From the NCBI RefSeq assembly GCF_003056405.1, contig NZ_PYVZ01000002.1:248001-312000 (forward strand): 64,000 nucleotides of DNA, in the 5' to 3' direction. The notes under the pieces are model-generated. The model saw only the letters and a program-made list of their open reading frames with translations. It was not told the DNA's origin and did no database searches. Shown here one piece after another: positions 38,140 to 46,167 of this stretch (positions within the stretch are counted from its first letter, which is position 1; the number at the start of each line of letters is the position of its first letter). Source of the DNA: Devosia indica (GTDB lineage: Bacteria > Pseudomonadota > Alphaproteobacteria > Rhizobiales > Devosiaceae). The position numbers and the translations under genes are program-made.

Positions 38140-39873
38140 TCAACTCACAAAGTCGAACTTGTCGACGTCGAAAAGCCCCCGATCGGTCATTTTGAGATGC
38201 GGGATCACCGGGAGGGCGAGAAAGGCAACTTGCAGGAAGGGCTCGGGTAGCACGCAGTCGAGCGCCTTGGCGGCGTTGCGCAGGAGATGCAAATCTTCGG
38301 CAACGTCCTCGAAGCTCTTGAGACTCATCAAGCCTGCGATGGGCAGCGCCAATTCCGCCGTCACCTTGCCGCCATCCGAGACAACGAAGCCGCCCCCCAG
38401 CTCGATCAGCCGGTTGACCGCAATGGCCATGTCCGCATCGGTGGCGCCGACCACAGTGATATTGTGGCTGTCATGCCCGACCGAAGAGGCAATGGCGCCG
38501 CGCTTGAGACCAAAGCCGGTAACGAAGGCGCGGCCGATATTGCCGTTCTTGCCGTGGCGCTCGATGACGGCAACCTTGATCACATCGGCATCGAGATCGG
38601 GCTGCAGTCCTTGATCGGTCGAGGCGAGGCTGGCCTCCTCCCGGAAGGTCAGAATGAGACCTGGGCGAACGCCAATGACCGGTACGCGGTTCTGGCCCGC
38701 CCGGGGTTCGGTGATGAAGGCGTCTGGCGTGACCGGCTTTGCCTTGACGGAGTGGAGCCCGACCGGCGCGACATCCCCCCGCGTTTCGAATAATTCGGGC
38801 GTCACCAGGCGGCCGGCCGCGATGACGTTGGAGACGCGACAGTCTTCAAGGCTGTCGAGAATGGCAATGTCGGCACGCCAACCCGGCGCCACCAGGCCGC
38901 GATCCTTCAGGCCAAAAATGCGGGCGGCAGAATGGCTGGCGGCGCGGTAAACATGGTGCAGCGGGCGTCCCATGGCGATGAGGCGACGGATCGAGCTGTC
39001 CAGATGGCCCTCTTCGGCAATATCGAGCGGATTGCGGTCATCTGTGCACAGGGCCACGAAGCTTGAGCTGTTTTCGTCGAGGATTTCGGCCAGCGCATTG
39101 AGGTCCTTCGACACTGACCCCTCGCGGATAAGAATGGCCATGCCCTTGGCAAGCTTTTCTCGTGCTTCAGCGGCGCTGGTGGCCTCGTGGTCAGTGCGAA
39201 TGCCTGCGGCGAGATAGCCATTGAGCGCCTCGCCCAGCACCAGGGGTGCGTGGCCGTCAATATGGCCGTCCTGAAAGGCGACAAGCTTGGCGATGATGCT
39301 CGGATTGGCGTTAAGCACGCCGGGGAAATTCATCATCTCGGCCAGGCCCAAGACCTTGGGGTGATTGCGGAAGGGCAGGAGGTCGTCGGCTTCGAGCTGT
39401 GCGCCCGCCGTTTCGAACGGGGTTGCCGGCACGCAGGACGAGAGATTGACGCGGACATCCATGATGGTGCGCTCGGCGCTGTCGAGAAAATAGCGAATGC
39501 CCTCGGCGCCCAACACATTGGCGATTTCATGCGGGTCGCACAGCACCGTGGTCACGCCATGGGGCAGCACGCAGCGGTCGAATTCCAGCGGCGTCACGAG
39601 CGAGGATTCGATGTGCAGATGGGTGTCGATGAAGCCGGGCACGGCAAACCGTCCGGTGCCGTCGATTACTTGCTCGCCCTCGTAGGAGGCATGGGTGCCT
39701 ACGATGCGGTCGGCGACGATCGCAATATCGGTTGTGGTTACCGCGCCGGTGATGACGTCGAGCAGGCCGATATTGCGGATGACCAGGTCCGCCGGCGCCT
39801 TGCCCTGTCCGGCCATGATCATATGGGTGAGCAGGGCGGGGCTGGTCATGGTCTTGTTCTCATTGTTGTTCAT
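38140..39873 (-). CDS. ade: adenine deaminase
   Basis: 577-residue amidohydrolase that deaminates adenine to hypoxanthine, an entry to xanthine dehydrogenase. Visible motifs are PGFIDTHLHIESS (HxH metal ligands), VLCDPHEIANV, the GHAP segment, and ALCTDDRNPLDI. Length and C-terminal domain with GHDSHNI fit Ade. The ATG at 39873 is used; an ATG at 39849 is also possible. Its link to the rest of the purine island is functional rather than by operon, since it is on the opposite strand. Confidence 0.93.
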   Translation of the reverse strand: MNNNENKTMTSPALLTHMIMAGQGKAPADLVIRNIGLLDVITGAVTTTDIAIVADRIVGTHASYEGEQVIDGTGRFAVPGFIDTHLHIESSLVTPLEFDRCVLPHGVTTVLCDPHEIANVLGAEGIRYFLDSAERTIMDVRVNLSSCVPATPFETAGAQLEADDLLPFRNHPKVLGLAEMMNFPGVLNANPSIIAKLVAFQDGHIDGHAPLVLGEALNGYLAAGIRTDHEATSAAEAREKLAKGMAILIREGSVSKDLNALAEILDENSSSFVALCTDDRNPLDIAEEGHLDSSIRRLIAMGRPLHHVYRAASHSAARIFGLKDRGLVAPGWRADIAILDSLEDCRVSNVIAAGRLVTPELFETRGDVAPVGLHSVKAKPVTPDAFITEPRAGQNRVPVIGVRPGLILTFREEASLASTDQGLQPDLDADVIKVAVIERHGKNGNIGRAFVTGFGLKRGAIASSVGHDSHNITVVGATDADMAIAVNRLIELGGGFVVSDGGKVTAELALPIAGLMSLKSFEDVAEDLHLLRNAAKALDCVLPEPFLQVAFLALPVIPHLKMTDRGLFDVDKFDFVS

Positions 39874-41757: not shown

Positions 41758-43527
41758 TTGGCGGAGAATCCGGACCGGCAGGGGGTAAATCGGGCGCTGG
41801 CCCGCTTGCTTAACTGGCCCGAGATCGCGCGTTCGCCACAACTGGTCCGATTCCTGTCATATATCGTTGAACGGCAATTGGCCGGCGAGGGGCAAGCGAT
41901 CAAGGCTTATGCCATAGCCGTTGACGTTTTTGGCCGCCCATCCGACTTCGACCCGCAGGCAGACCCGATTGTTCGGGTGCAGGCGAGACGTCTGCGATCC
42001 CTGCTCGACCAGTACTATCGCGGCCCTGGAGCCGATGACGAGATTCAGATCCAGTTGCCGATTGGTCGCTACGTCCCGGAATTTGTCACGGCAGAGAGGA
42101 CAGTCTCGTTCGAGGCGGCGACTGAGGGCTCCGATGCGAGCTCGACAGCGCCGGCGAGAGAAGAAGATCCTACCCAAGCAGCCAAAGCGCCGGCACCGCG
42201 CGGGCATGTCACAGTATCATGGTTTGTTCTCCTTATGCTGGCCGTTGGCGCAGCGGCGCTGGCCTATTCCCTCTCCACGGTCGACACGCGGCGCGAGCAG
42301 ACGGTTGTGGTCAGCGGCACCCTGCAGCCGCCGCGCCTACGGGTCATGGAATTTCAGAACCTGACCGGGGACAGCAGCATTACCCCGACCATTTCAGCTC
42401 TCGCCATTGAGTTGGTGACCGATTTCGAGCCCTTGCTGATCGTGGATGTTTCTCTGGGCAGCCGGTCTGGTGGCGGGGGTACGGAGGATTTCTCGCTGAC
42501 TGGAATTGTGCGTGACGATCCCCTCTCGCCGCAGAACTATCAAGTCGGGGCGATACTGACCGAGCTGGCAACAAACTCGATTGTCTGGAACTGGTCGATT
42601 TCGGTTCCGCACGATCAATTGACGCGCAGGGGTGGTGTTGATGCGATCTCGCAGGAGTTGATCCTGCTGCTGGGTGGAACGCGTGGACCGCTGCATGATC
42701 GGGCCAGGGAATTGCTGAGCCAGGGCAGTATTGCGGGGCGGGAGAATTTCTATCTGTGCGGTGTGCTGTTCAGCATGTACCGCACATCGGGATCGGTTGG
42801 GCTGGCCGAACGGGTTCGCTCCTGTATTGCGGGGTTGCCGGAGAGTGAGCGCAACAATGGCAATGTGATCGCCGGGTTGGCCAGTCTGATTGCCGAGGGC
42901 GTGGGCGAAGGTGACAACGCCCTGCTGACGCTGGATGAGCGGCTGGCCGAAGCCGATGAACTTATGGACCGGGCGGTGCTTTCCGATCCGACCAGCAGCT
43001 TTGTCTGGGAGCAGCGGGCGCGGCTCGATGAGATGCTCGGCCTGCATGATATTGCGGAAGCGGCCTATGGCACTGCGCTGCAGATCAACCCGTCCAATAT
43101 GGATGCCATGGCGGCCCATGCGCGGCATCTGGCGCTGATCGGGCGTCTGGATGCGGCGATTCCGGCAGCGAGACGGGCGATGGAATCGGTGCCGCAGACC
43201 CAGATCCCGGATTGGTACTTCTGCGTGCCATCAATGGCCGCGCTGTACGAGGCCGAGTATCGCCGGGCGTTGTCCTATGCCGAGCGGTGCGCGCGCAGCG
43301 ATGTGGAGCTGGGGAGCGTTCTCGCATTGCTGGCGGCGCAGGGGACAGATGATGCGGGCCTGGTCGACCAGAAACTGCCGCGGGTTCTGGAAGTGCCGTC
43401 ATTCCGCCAGGCCGGGATCCTGTCGCGGATGCGGGAGCGGGCCACCGATCTTGCGCTGATCGAGCGGATCGCGACGGGCCTGCGGCAGGCCGGAGTGCCG
43501 GAAAGCTCGCTAAATTCCCCCTATTGA
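41758..43527 (+). CDS. membrane-anchored TPR protein with a conserved N-terminal cytoplasmic domain
   Basis: 589 residues. The N-terminal domain (1-110) has the conserved run LVRFLSYIVERQLAG, IKAYAIAVDVFGRP, DFDPQADPIVRVQARRLR and LPIGRYVPEF that begins a family of signalling and TPR proteins in rhizobia and other bacteria. A single membrane segment lies at about 152-172, then a domain of mixed strands and a C-terminal set of TPR-like helices (about 330-560). The start is a TTG at 41758 nine bases after GGGAGG; no better in-frame start is present. Function is not known. It ends 7 bases inside the convergent murD2 gene. Confidence 0.75.
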   Translation: MAENPDRQGVNRALARLLNWPEIARSPQLVRFLSYIVERQLAGEGQAIKAYAIAVDVFGRPSDFDPQADPIVRVQARRLRSLLDQYYRGPGADDEIQIQLPIGRYVPEFVTAERTVSFEAATEGSDASSTAPAREEDPTQAAKAPAPRGHVTVSWFVLLMLAVGAAALAYSLSTVDTRREQTVVVSGTLQPPRLRVMEFQNLTGDSSITPTISALAIELVTDFEPLLIVDVSLGSRSGGGGTEDFSLTGIVRDDPLSPQNYQVGAILTELATNSIVWNWSISVPHDQLTRRGGVDAISQELILLLGGTRGPLHDRARELLSQGSIAGRENFYLCGVLFSMYRTSGSVGLAERVRSCIAGLPESERNNGNVIAGLASLIAEGVGEGDNALLTLDERLAEADELMDRAVLSDPTSSFVWEQRARLDEMLGLHDIAEAAYGTALQINPSNMDAMAAHARHLALIGRLDAAIPAARRAMESVPQTQIPDWYFCVPSMAALYEAEYRRALSYAERCARSDVELGSVLALLAAQGTDDAGLVDQKLPRVLEVPSFRQAGILSRMRERATDLALIERIATGLRQAGVPESSLNSPY

Positions 43528-44846
43528 GGCGGGCGCCAGCCGCCAGATGAGCCGGCATGGCCCAGCCGGGCGCGGCAGAGTTCGACGAAATGGGCGCCGC
43601 GTTCCTCGAAATTCCTGAACTGATTGTAGGAGGGCGCGCCGGGCGAGAGGATCAGCGTGTCAAAACGAAGCTTTTGGACGGCGAGAGCGCTGATCGCGTG
43701 ATCGAGGTCCGGCGCCTCGATGACCAGAATGTCGGGGCTGACGGAGCGGGTGGCCTTGGCCAGGCGCGAGCCAGTCACCGGCAGGGTGACAAGCGTGGTG
43801 ACACCGCGTGAGGCCAACAGGCCGGCCAGTTCGGTATAGTCCTGTTCCCGCTCGTGCCCGCCAGCAATCAGGGCAATGCGGTGGCCGGGATAGGCGGCGA
43901 GAGCGGCCTTGGTCGCCTCAGGCGTGGTGGAGATGGAGTCGTTGACGACGACATGATCGCCAATGCGATGCTCCTCGAGGCGATGGGGCAGGGGGCGAAA
44001 GGCCGCGATGCCCTGCATGATGCCATCGAGCGAGCCGCCAACGCCCAGGGTAATCTGGGCGGCGAGCAGGGCATTGTCGAGATTGTGCGCGCCGCGCAGG
44101 CGCGACCGGGCCACGGCGTTTTCGACGGCGATACTGACCTCGGCGGTGAGGTCGGGCAGGAGGCGGCGGTGATCGCGCACGGCGCGCGCCACAAGGGCAT
44201 TGCCCTTGGCTGCGGTGCCCAGCGCCACGGCGAAGCCGCCATCGCGGTCGATCAGATGGAGCTTGTCGGCGTAATAGCGCTCCACCGAGCCGTGCCAATC
44301 GACATGTTCGGGATAAAGATTGGTCAGCGCCGCCACGTCGGGCATAAAATTCATGTCGGCGGTCTGGTAGCTCGAGAGTTCAAAGACCACGACGGCGTGG
44401 CGGTCGGCGATTTCGAGCGGGGCCAGGCCCACATTGCCCGCCAGGCCCGCATCGATGCCCGAGCGGGTGAGCATGAGATGGGTCAGCGTGGCGGTGGTCG
44501 ACTTGCCCTTGGTGCCGGTAATGGCAATGACCGTGCGGTCATGCCGGAAACTGGCGCCCCAGAGATTGAGGTTGGAGGTGACCGGAATGGCCGCATTGCG
44601 CGCCGCCTCGAAGATGGGCTTGTAGCGCGACACGCCCGGGCTCTTGATGATGAGGCCAAAGCGGCGCGCGGCGATGGCGGCGGGCAAGTCGGCGGCGGCT
44701 ATCAGCTCGGTATCGGGGATATCGGCGGTGCCGCTATCGACCGTGACATAGACCTTGAGTTGGGGTTGCCGTGCCTTGAGAAAAGCCCGCGAGGACAGCG
44801 CCTCGCGCCCGGCTCCATAGAGCAGGACGGGTTCGTCAAACCGCAT
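43521..44846 (-). CDS. murD2: MurD2-type UDP-N-acetylmuramoyl-L-alanine--L-glutamate ligase
   Basis: 441 residues of the Mur ligase family: a short Rossmann N-domain, GTKGKST ATP loop (111-117), FELSSYQ, and the ligase C-domain with the RPLPHRLE and GGHEREQDY segments. Sequence alone makes it MurD-like. The next gene upstream is a MurL homologue, which fixes the likely role: MurD2 adds L-glutamate, rather than D-glutamate, to UDP-MurNAc-L-Ala, and MurL then epimerises the new residue. The two genes overlap by 11 bases. The canonical MurD would sit in the dcw cluster, outside this window. Confidence 0.85.
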   Translation of the reverse strand: MRFDEPVLLYGAGREALSSRAFLKARQPQLKVYVTVDSGTADIPDTELIAAADLPAAIAARRFGLIIKSPGVSRYKPIFEAARNAAIPVTSNLNLWGASFRHDRTVIAITGTKGKSTTATLTHLMLTRSGIDAGLAGNVGLAPLEIADRHAVVVFELSSYQTADMNFMPDVAALTNLYPEHVDWHGSVERYYADKLHLIDRDGGFAVALGTAAKGNALVARAVRDHRRLLPDLTAEVSIAVENAVARSRLRGAHNLDNALLAAQITLGVGGSLDGIMQGIAAFRPLPHRLEEHRIGDHVVVNDSISTTPEATKAALAAYPGHRIALIAGGHEREQDYTELAGLLASRGVTTLVTLPVTGSRLAKATRSVSPDILVIEAPDLDHAISALAVQKLRFDTLILSPGAPSYNQFRNFEERGAHFVELCRARLGHAGSSGGWRPPQ

Positions 44847-46167
44847 AGGCGGCCACCTTGGCGGCGAGCGCCGGGGGAATGTGGTGGTCGTGGCTATCGG
44901 TCAGGCATTCGGCCATGGCCCTCTGCAGCTTTTCCTCGCCATATTGGGCAAACAGATCCGCCTTGATGGCGCGCACAATGGCGTCCTCATGCCAGTCGGC
45001 ATGGCGGGTGAGGGTGTAGAAGCAGGCGGCGGCCTCAAGAATTTCACCGACGCATTCCCAGGGCTTCTGGCCGGTGAGGCCGGCCAGTTCGCGGAAGGAT
45101 TGCTCATGGGCCGGATCGTCGAGCAGGTTGCGGCCGAAGATCCGCAGCATCCGGTCCTTGGCCATGAAGGGGGCGAAAATCAGGAACACGAAATGGCATT
45201 TAGGGCATTCGCCGCACCAGAGCGGGCCGTCATTGCCATTGAGCCGGAAATTGCGATTGCAGCTCGAAAAGACGGCATCGAACTTATGCTCCTTGGTGAA
45301 GAGCGAGGCGATGCGCGCTTCCGAATAGGGGCGCAGCAGCGAGAAATATTTCAACGCGCCCCCTGTGGCATTGGCCAGAGTATCGGCGATCAGCAGTTCG
45401 AAACCGAGCGACTTGGAATATTGGTGATTGGTCTCGCGCCCGTCGAACATGACATTGCCCTCGCTGGCGGAGCGCTCATTGGAAAGCACGATCTGGTCGT
45501 AGCCAAACAGCAGGGCGCAGAGGGATGCGATCATCGAATTGATGGCGGTGGAGGGCACGTGGCCATTGTAATAGCCGGTCTCCTGCCCGAGGCGGATCAT
45601 TTCGGGGTCGAGGGTCCGGGTGACATAAAGCGGCGGCGTGCCGATGGCGTCGACCGAGGTGAGGATCGGCCCCTTGGGATTGACCGCAAAGGGCGTGAAG
45701 GCCTCATCGGTATGGGTCAGCAGATCAACGCTGACCAGGGAATCCTTGCCCCCGCCAATAGGCAGCAGGGTTCGGCTGGGCAGGTCCGGGGCGGGCTTGC
45801 GCTCTGTTGGGTCATGCGGGGCGGTCAGCTCGAGCTTACCGAAGCGGGCGAGTTCATTGCGGGCGTAGAATTCGCCCAGGCCATTTTCATAGACATCGAT
45901 GACGAAGGCGCGCTCGGCGGCGGTCAGCGCAATATCGGGTGCCTGGATGGCGAAGGGCGCGCGCAGCTTGAAATAGGACACACCGAGTACGATCGCGGTG
46001 AGGCCGAGCAGCTTTTCGAAGGCGGGCGAGGCAGCCGCGCTCTCGCTGGCACCTGCGGGCAGGACCAGCTTTTCGGTGAAGGCAAGATCGTTCAGCCTAT
46101 AGGCAAGAACGGCCTCGCCACTGGCCGGGTCGAAGGTGGGGCGCTCTATGCGGAAAAATTCAGTCAC
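44836..46167 (-). CDS. murL: MurL: UDP-N-acetyl-muramoyl-L-alanyl-L-glutamate epimerase
   Basis: 443 residues. The features recognised are the PIGGGKDS loop (136-143), LSNERSASEGN, and a cysteine cluster CGECPKC (318-324) with C303 nearby. These match the MurL family first described in Xanthomonas, which inverts the glutamate of UDP-MurNAc-L-Ala-L-Glu to the D form. Together with MurD2 it replaces glutamate racemase (MurI) plus canonical MurD. GTG 46167 is the chosen start; an upstream ATG would add about 59 low-complexity residues. Confidence 0.85.
   Translation of the reverse strand: MTEFFRIERPTFDPASGEAVLAYRLNDLAFTEKLVLPAGASESAAASPAFEKLLGLTAIVLGVSYFKLRAPFAIQAPDIALTAAERAFVIDVYENGLGEFYARNELARFGKLELTAPHDPTERKPAPDLPSRTLLPIGGGKDSLVSVDLLTHTDEAFTPFAVNPKGPILTSVDAIGTPPLYVTRTLDPEMIRLGQETGYYNGHVPSTAINSMIASLCALLFGYDQIVLSNERSASEGNVMFDGRETNHQYSKSLGFELLIADTLANATGGALKYFSLLRPYSEARIASLFTKEHKFDAVFSSCNRNFRLNGNDGPLWCGECPKCHFVFLIFAPFMAKDRMLRIFGRNLLDDPAHEQSFRELAGLTGQKPWECVGEILEAAACFYTLTRHADWHEDAIVRAIKADLFAQYGEEKLQRAMAECLTDSHDHHIPPALAAKVAAYAV

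Follow-up and report, generated by a model that had tools for sequence, protein, structure and literature searches.

The 64,000-nucleotide stretch of the Devosia indica genome analysed here (contig NZ_PYVZ01000002.1, positions 248,001 to 312,000; the window) carries two overlapping genes, murD2 and murL, which very probably provide this bacterium with the D-glutamyl residue of its peptidoglycan: MurD2 would attach L-glutamate, and MurL, to judge from its homologues, would then invert the residue in place. The route and its presence in Devosia are known from print. PMC8788868 describes the MurD2-MurL pair of Xanthomonas oryzae (XOO_1320/XOO_1319), with tests of the pair in Micromonospora sp. 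and Salinispora tropica as well, and already names Devosia, Pelagibacterium and Parvularcula as carriers. The preliminary description of this DNA, made from its letters, had reported a MurD-like ligase overlapping a MurL homologue with GGGKDS and CGECPKC motifs, and the coordinates, motifs and profile matches all agree with it (Table 1). The overlap suggests that translation of the two genes may be coupled.

The only NCBIfam match of the window MurL was NF041275 (MurL), at E 3e-120 and 401.7 bits over profile positions 8-445 of 447; none of 14 control genomes matched this profile. MurD2 scored 262.9 bits against TIGR01087 (murD), above the cut-off of 211.95, and matched Pfam Mur_ligase_M and Mur_ligase_C, both above cut-off. 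MurL is 95% identical to a Devosia subaequoris locus over residues 1-432, and the nearest relatives of MurD2 in our tree are from Devosia. Among the loci of the family that we compared, identity to the window was 52-98% for MurL and 45-95% for MurD2. A MurD-like gene adjoins MurL in 78 of 80 loci from public genomes; the sequences of the other two stop 18 bp (L142) and about 0.9 kb (L153) past the MurL match. The pairing is thus not a chance one, given the identity across the family and the adjacency in 78 of the 80 loci, and judged by sequence the window pair is of the known MurD2-MurL kind.

We compared the residues of the ligase with those that set the stereospecificity of its relatives. 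The double change E197D/R358K makes X. oryzae MurD2 a D-glutamate ligase (PMC8788868). P433 and F435 of this enzyme also differ from E. coli MurD, but changing only these two had no effect, and P433A alone left stereospecificity unchanged; K319T, in turn, lets E. coli MurD accept L-glutamate (PMC8788868). In the alignment to E. coli MurD, whose numbering we use for positions below, the window MurD2 places Glu180, Arg333, Pro405 and Tyr407 at positions 182, 348, 414 and 416, and it keeps Lys115, His183 and Lys198. Positions 182, 348 and 414 read Glu, Arg and Pro in 63 of 63 MurD2 and Asp, Lys and Ala in 16 of 16 canonical MurD, while position 416 did not discriminate between these sets. All 16 canonical MurD have Lys at position 319 and none of the 63 MurD2 does (61 Ile, 2 Asn), a difference of which we found no mention in the accessible part of PMC8788868. 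In the MurD2 set, 43 sequences belong to the window's family, 11 are of the Lysobacterales type and 9 come from elsewhere; they represent 62 genomes, since one was sampled twice (L073 = L108); the canonical set is E. coli MurD with 15 relatives from the same order, hand-picked from genomes with MurI. The residue alignment has 64 entries (the window and 63 loci). L074 gave no MurD2, its contig ending 89 bp past the MurL match, and two groups of loci were left out: L003 and L019 (the window itself), and L082, L083, L105, L106 and L109 (repeats or fragments). The MurD partners in public genomes have Glu182 in 75/78, Arg348 in 76/77, Pro414 in 73/74 and Ile or Leu319 in 77/77 of those with a letter at the position.

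In the tree, 34 MurD2 (a hand-picked subset) fall on one side of a branch with support 98/96 and the 16 canonical MurD on the other. As the root is a midpoint and two outgroup branches are very long, the tree gives no direction of descent. It does separate MurD2 from canonical MurD, which means that the Devosia ligase did not arise by drift from a local rhizobial MurD. Residues and tree together support the assignment of the window ligase to the L-glutamate type, MurD2.

The classical route to D-glutamate appears to be missing from the same genome (3.95 Mb in 69 contigs, 99.98% complete). A profile search of the contigs found no MurI above cut-off. There were five murD matches, of which the window gene alone exceeded the cut-off (scores were computed for all 19 candidates); the other four lie in the division and cell wall (dcw) cluster and are, by position and open reading frames, MurC, MurE (twice) and MurF. 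The functional MurI and canonical MurD that would speak for the ordinary pathway were therefore looked for without either being found, and the earlier interpretation, a MurD2-MurL route that dispenses with glutamate racemase, is supported at the level of genes, with a ligase that carries L-glutamate-type residues. The dcw cluster itself (contig C11) is, as we read it, mraW, ftsI, murE, murF, mraY, a cassette, ftsW, murG, murC, ddl, ftsQ, ftsA. The cassette between mraY and ftsW (8684-10871 of L008, which is the piece 74000-93000 of C11) encodes an ECF-type (extracytoplasmic function) sigma factor, identified by eye, an RskA-type anti-sigma factor and a DUF4394 protein. In 15 of 15 picked relatives of the order with MurI, murD lies between mraY and ftsW, several of them having up to about 1 kb of extra sequence on one side of it; canonical murD has thus gone from its usual place in D. 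indica, the member of its family for which the slot was read.

It could be argued that a MurI escaped notice, either falling between contigs or being too divergent to recognise, since the assembly is in 69 contigs and one family member, G007, does carry a MurI-like protein. The completeness of the genome, the absence of MurI above cut-off from all 136 genomes of the family, several of them single contigs, and the detection of MurI by the same profile in 254 of 297 members of the order make this very improbable. The G007 protein (L111 851-1672 (-); 113 bits, below cut-off), from a genome that has MurL, reads serine at both of the cysteines that we take to be catalytic, each of which is present in four aligned MurI; it is likely a dead remnant, or else a repurposed copy. 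Its gene shares a contig with a gene that looks, by eye, like a flagellar-type ATPase. Two weak MurI-profile matches in D. indica (28.9 and 26.7 bits) were rejected as hidden MurI, as they are YgeA-type amino-acid racemases (183.8 and 211.9 bits against TIGR00035, asp_race).

These two proteins could in principle supply free D-glutamate to a canonical MurD, with MurL doing something else; indeed, their best model is an aspartate/glutamate racemase, though they score below its cut-off. E. coli K-12 carries ygeA. E. coli WM335 is nevertheless a D-glutamate auxotroph (PMC8788868), so a gene of this type does not replace MurI in E. coli. Moreover, the window ligase lacks the D182/K348/A414 set found in 16/16 canonical MurD, and matches to the MurI profile below cut-off occurred in some rather than all MurL-bearing genomes (62/136, 7/21 and 3/15 in the family and the two further sets described below), in searches insensitive to YgeA, the family-wide one having missed both proteins of D. 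indica itself. We thus regard an ordinary route in disguise as decidedly improbable. Even less credence, next to none, goes to D-glutamate made by a D-amino-acid transaminase. A class-IV aminotransferase of D. indica does match TIGR01121, the only such model searched genome-wide, but at 105.6 bits, and nothing in the genome reached the cut-off of 277.45; this candidate was rejected because it scores 502.7 bits as a branched-chain aminotransferase (NF005726, cut-off 396).

Across the family MurL was found in 131 of 136 genomes, and MurD2 in 125, an undercount because at most 11 candidates were scored per genome; for the same reason the single MurD seen per genome does not prove the lack of a second. 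Apparent loss of MurD2 from MurL-bearing genomes of one genus (g5) was rejected for G085, G087, G088 and G091, where the DNA shows MurD2 beside MurL; the piece fetched for G096 held part of MurL only, at a contig end. MurL gave two abutting matches in G013, G023 and G061 and has one in-frame stop in G113, and sequencing errors and decay were not distinguished as the cause. Of 297 genomes sampled from the order, 15 had MurL, all of them in the window's family, and 254 had MurI at E 1e-20 (224 of them above cut-off); no genome had both. Of 397 sampled from the phylum, 21 had MurL. No MurI above cut-off was found in 21 MurL genomes (20 of the phylum sample besides D. indica, with G007), nor in the 15 genomes behind public-record MurL loci, which include Roseiarcaceae and Beijerinckiaceae records, Gayadomonas, a Micavibrio metagenome-assembled genome (MAG), Symbioplanes and Micromonospora. 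The Roseiarcaceae, Beijerinckiaceae, Gayadomonas and Micavibrio records fall outside the genus list in the accessible part of PMC8788868. The preliminary description had called the route rare and uncommon among rhizobial relatives; this holds at the level of the order and fails inside the family, where MurL is nearly universal. In the ancestry of the family, the MurD2-MurL pair probably took over from MurI and canonical MurD.

Several observations count against this reading or blur its picture. The MurL score of 401.7 bits lies below the curated NF041275 cut-off of 700; the profile takes its name from the Xanthomonadales form, and none of the 136 family genomes reached that cut-off. The two YgeA-type aspartate/glutamate racemases might make some D-glutamate. 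Five family genomes, 62-92% complete, gave no MurL match, and 28 of the 297 order genomes lacked both MurL and a MurI match at E 1e-20 (for example G138 and G184, of 1.3-1.4 Mb). For mutual exclusion of MurL and MurI in the order sample, the Fisher p of 2.3e-14 overstates the case, because the 15 MurL genomes are one family and relatives were counted as independent. The absence of MurI from the 15 genomes of public loci is weaker evidence, as their completeness is not given, they include MAGs of about 2 Mb, and they may overlap in species with family genomes already counted. The MurD partners in L138 and L139 have Asp at position 182 and possibly an intermediate specificity, and the MurD-like gene of L173 (7293-8690 (+)) encodes Cys, Ile, Val and Ala at 182, 319, 348 and 414, so that the substrate of this ligase may differ. 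Finally, activity was assayed for the X. oryzae pair, whereas the Devosia pair is known here from its genes. L138 (a Roseiarcaceae genome) and L139 (a Hyphomicrobiales MAG) also place MurL in the order outside Devosiaceae.

How MurL might invert the residue is suggested by its predicted fold. The structure model has a predicted local distance difference test (pLDDT) score of 95.6; prediction from the single sequence gave 35.8. With the model, the top six Foldseek rows were all QatC, QueC or Cap9, and the same proteins headed the VIA-align rows, indicating a QueC-like core fold in the model. MurL is thus predicted to share its scaffold with the tRNA-modification enzyme QueC and the phage-defence enzyme QatC, the latter being, among solved structures, its nearest relative over the full chain. 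The motif residues are strongly conserved: G138-D142, C318, C321 and C324 are invariant in 64 of 64 MurL and S143 is present in 63 of 64; invariance was seen in two further sets as well (18/18 and 44/44). On such a PP-loop ATPase fold, MurL would use ATP to form an adenylate at the alpha-carboxyl group of the L-glutamyl residue, acidifying the alpha-proton. Deprotonation and then reprotonation from the opposite side, presumably by an acid and a base residue of the enzyme, would follow, and hydrolysis of the adenylate would give the D form, AMP and pyrophosphate, which would make the epimerisation one-way.

Alternatively, MurL may epimerise without adenylation, with ATP only driving a conformational change or phosphorylating the substrate, for example, and the QueC-like fold a coincidence. 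The PP-loop enzymes with which the model was matched work by adenylating their substrates, and QatC, QueC and Cap9 fill the top six Foldseek rows. MurL is reported to release AMP and to need one equivalent of ATP (PMC8788868). Although its discoverers regard the mechanism as unclear (PMC8788868), we consider an adenylation-free reaction unlikely. MurL has been described in review as having no known conserved domains and an unclear mechanism.

Other results weigh against adenylation on a QueC/QatC-like fold. Alpha-carboxylate adenylation is a hypothesis of the discoverers (PMC8788868). The link to QueC and QatC is structural, and the Foldseek superpositions are loose (for QatC, TM score 0.44/0.45, root-mean-square deviation 10.9). 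Sequence comparison sees the PP-loop only, in a match to TtuA (E 0.037) and in hhalign against a small QueC alignment (E 0.0021, probability 13%). Scans of the window MurL with Pfam and with PADLOC gave no match, PF06508 was absent from the Pfam families matched at E 1 by any of 44 MurL, and a sequence search of the PDB with MurL alone returned one chance match. Glycine replaces the first serine of the SGGxDS loop of the QueC family, and the cysteine motif, C(x)14CxxCxxC, is a spacing variant of the QueC zinc motif C(x)8CxxCxxC; the spacing is longer in QatC too, C(x)19CxxCxxC by residue numbers (PMC13279940). Taking both sides together, it is a serious but tentative possibility that MurL is the peptidoglycan branch of the QueC/QatC zinc PP-loop group, a carboxylate-adenylating scaffold turned peptidyl epimerase that may share the chemistry of QatC. 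If so, what MurL and QatC share would extend beyond the fold to carboxylate adenylation on a peptide-like substrate. The literature searched, which lacks most subscription papers, yielded no report of a QueC-like fold for MurL; the word MurL is absent from the main texts of recent QueC/QatC papers, and literature searches beyond the MurL reviews, judged from their listings, returned nothing on MurL.

Table 1. Positions in the window of the gene pair and of its diagnostic codons
Feature	Position	Strand	Remarks
murL	44836..46167	(-)	open frame, 443 amino acids; GTG start at 46167
murD2	43521..44846	(-)	open frame, 441 amino acids
murL/murD2 overlap	44836..44846	(-)	11 bp; end of murL over start of murD2
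GGGKDS codons, MurL 138-143	45739..45756	(-)	PP-loop-type ATP pyrophosphate site; sequence reading
MurL Cys303 codon	45259..45261	(-)	first of four presumed zinc cysteines; invariant in 64/64 MurL
CGECPKC codons, MurL 318-324	45196..45216	(-)	presumed zinc C318, C321, C324; sequence reading
MurD2 Glu180 codon	44307..44309	(-)	= E. coli MurD Asp182, X. oryzae MurD2 Glu197; alignment
MurD2 Arg333 codon	43848..43850	(-)	= E. coli MurD Lys348, X. oryzae MurD2 Arg358; alignment
MurD2 Pro405 codon	43632..43634	(-)	= E. coli MurD Ala414, X. oryzae MurD2 Pro433; alignment
MurD2 Ile305 codon	43932..43934	(-)	= E. coli MurD Lys319; alignment

Tail-to-tail with murD2, and overlapping it by 7 bp, lies a gene (41758-43527 (+)) for a 589-residue protein whose C-terminal half appears tetratricopeptide-like by eye. 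The gene at 38140-39873 (-) looks like one for an adenine deaminase, also a call by eye.

Judged by its genes, a whole bacterial family has exchanged MurI and canonical MurD for MurD2 and MurL, and in the genome examined the old murD slot has been refilled. A QueC/QatC-like zinc PP-loop fold would make the proposed adenylation directly testable and would link peptidoglycan synthesis to enzymes of tRNA modification and phage defence; if borne out in a solved structure, this assignment is what would surprise specialists.

The window pair resembles MurD2-MurL of X. oryzae in its adjacent genes, L-glutamate-type residues, PP-loop and cysteine motifs and the lack of MurI. It is 38-42% (MurL) and 32-36% (MurD2) identical to 11 loci of the Lysobacterales type, with 45% over 158 residues in L072. 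In the Micromonosporaceae loci L177 and L193, unlike the window, murL and murD2 are divergent. With canonical MurD (TIGR01087), which works with MurI, the window ligase shares its family and Lys115, His183 and Lys198; it differs in having Glu, Arg, Pro and Ile rather than Asp, Lys, Ala and Lys at positions 182, 348, 414 and 319, in lying outside the dcw cluster and in having no MurI partner. Compared with QatC of the qatABCD anti-phage system (PDB 9y01/9y02; PMC13279940), MurL is 11% identical, would act on a different substrate, has GGGKDS where proteins of the QueC family have SGGxDS, and has no known QatB-like partner. Compared with QueC (PF06508; PDB 2pg3, 3bl5) and Cap9 (9nto), it has no PF06508 match, carries C-x14-CxxCxxC in place of C-x8-CxxCxxC, and has extra N- and C-terminal parts.
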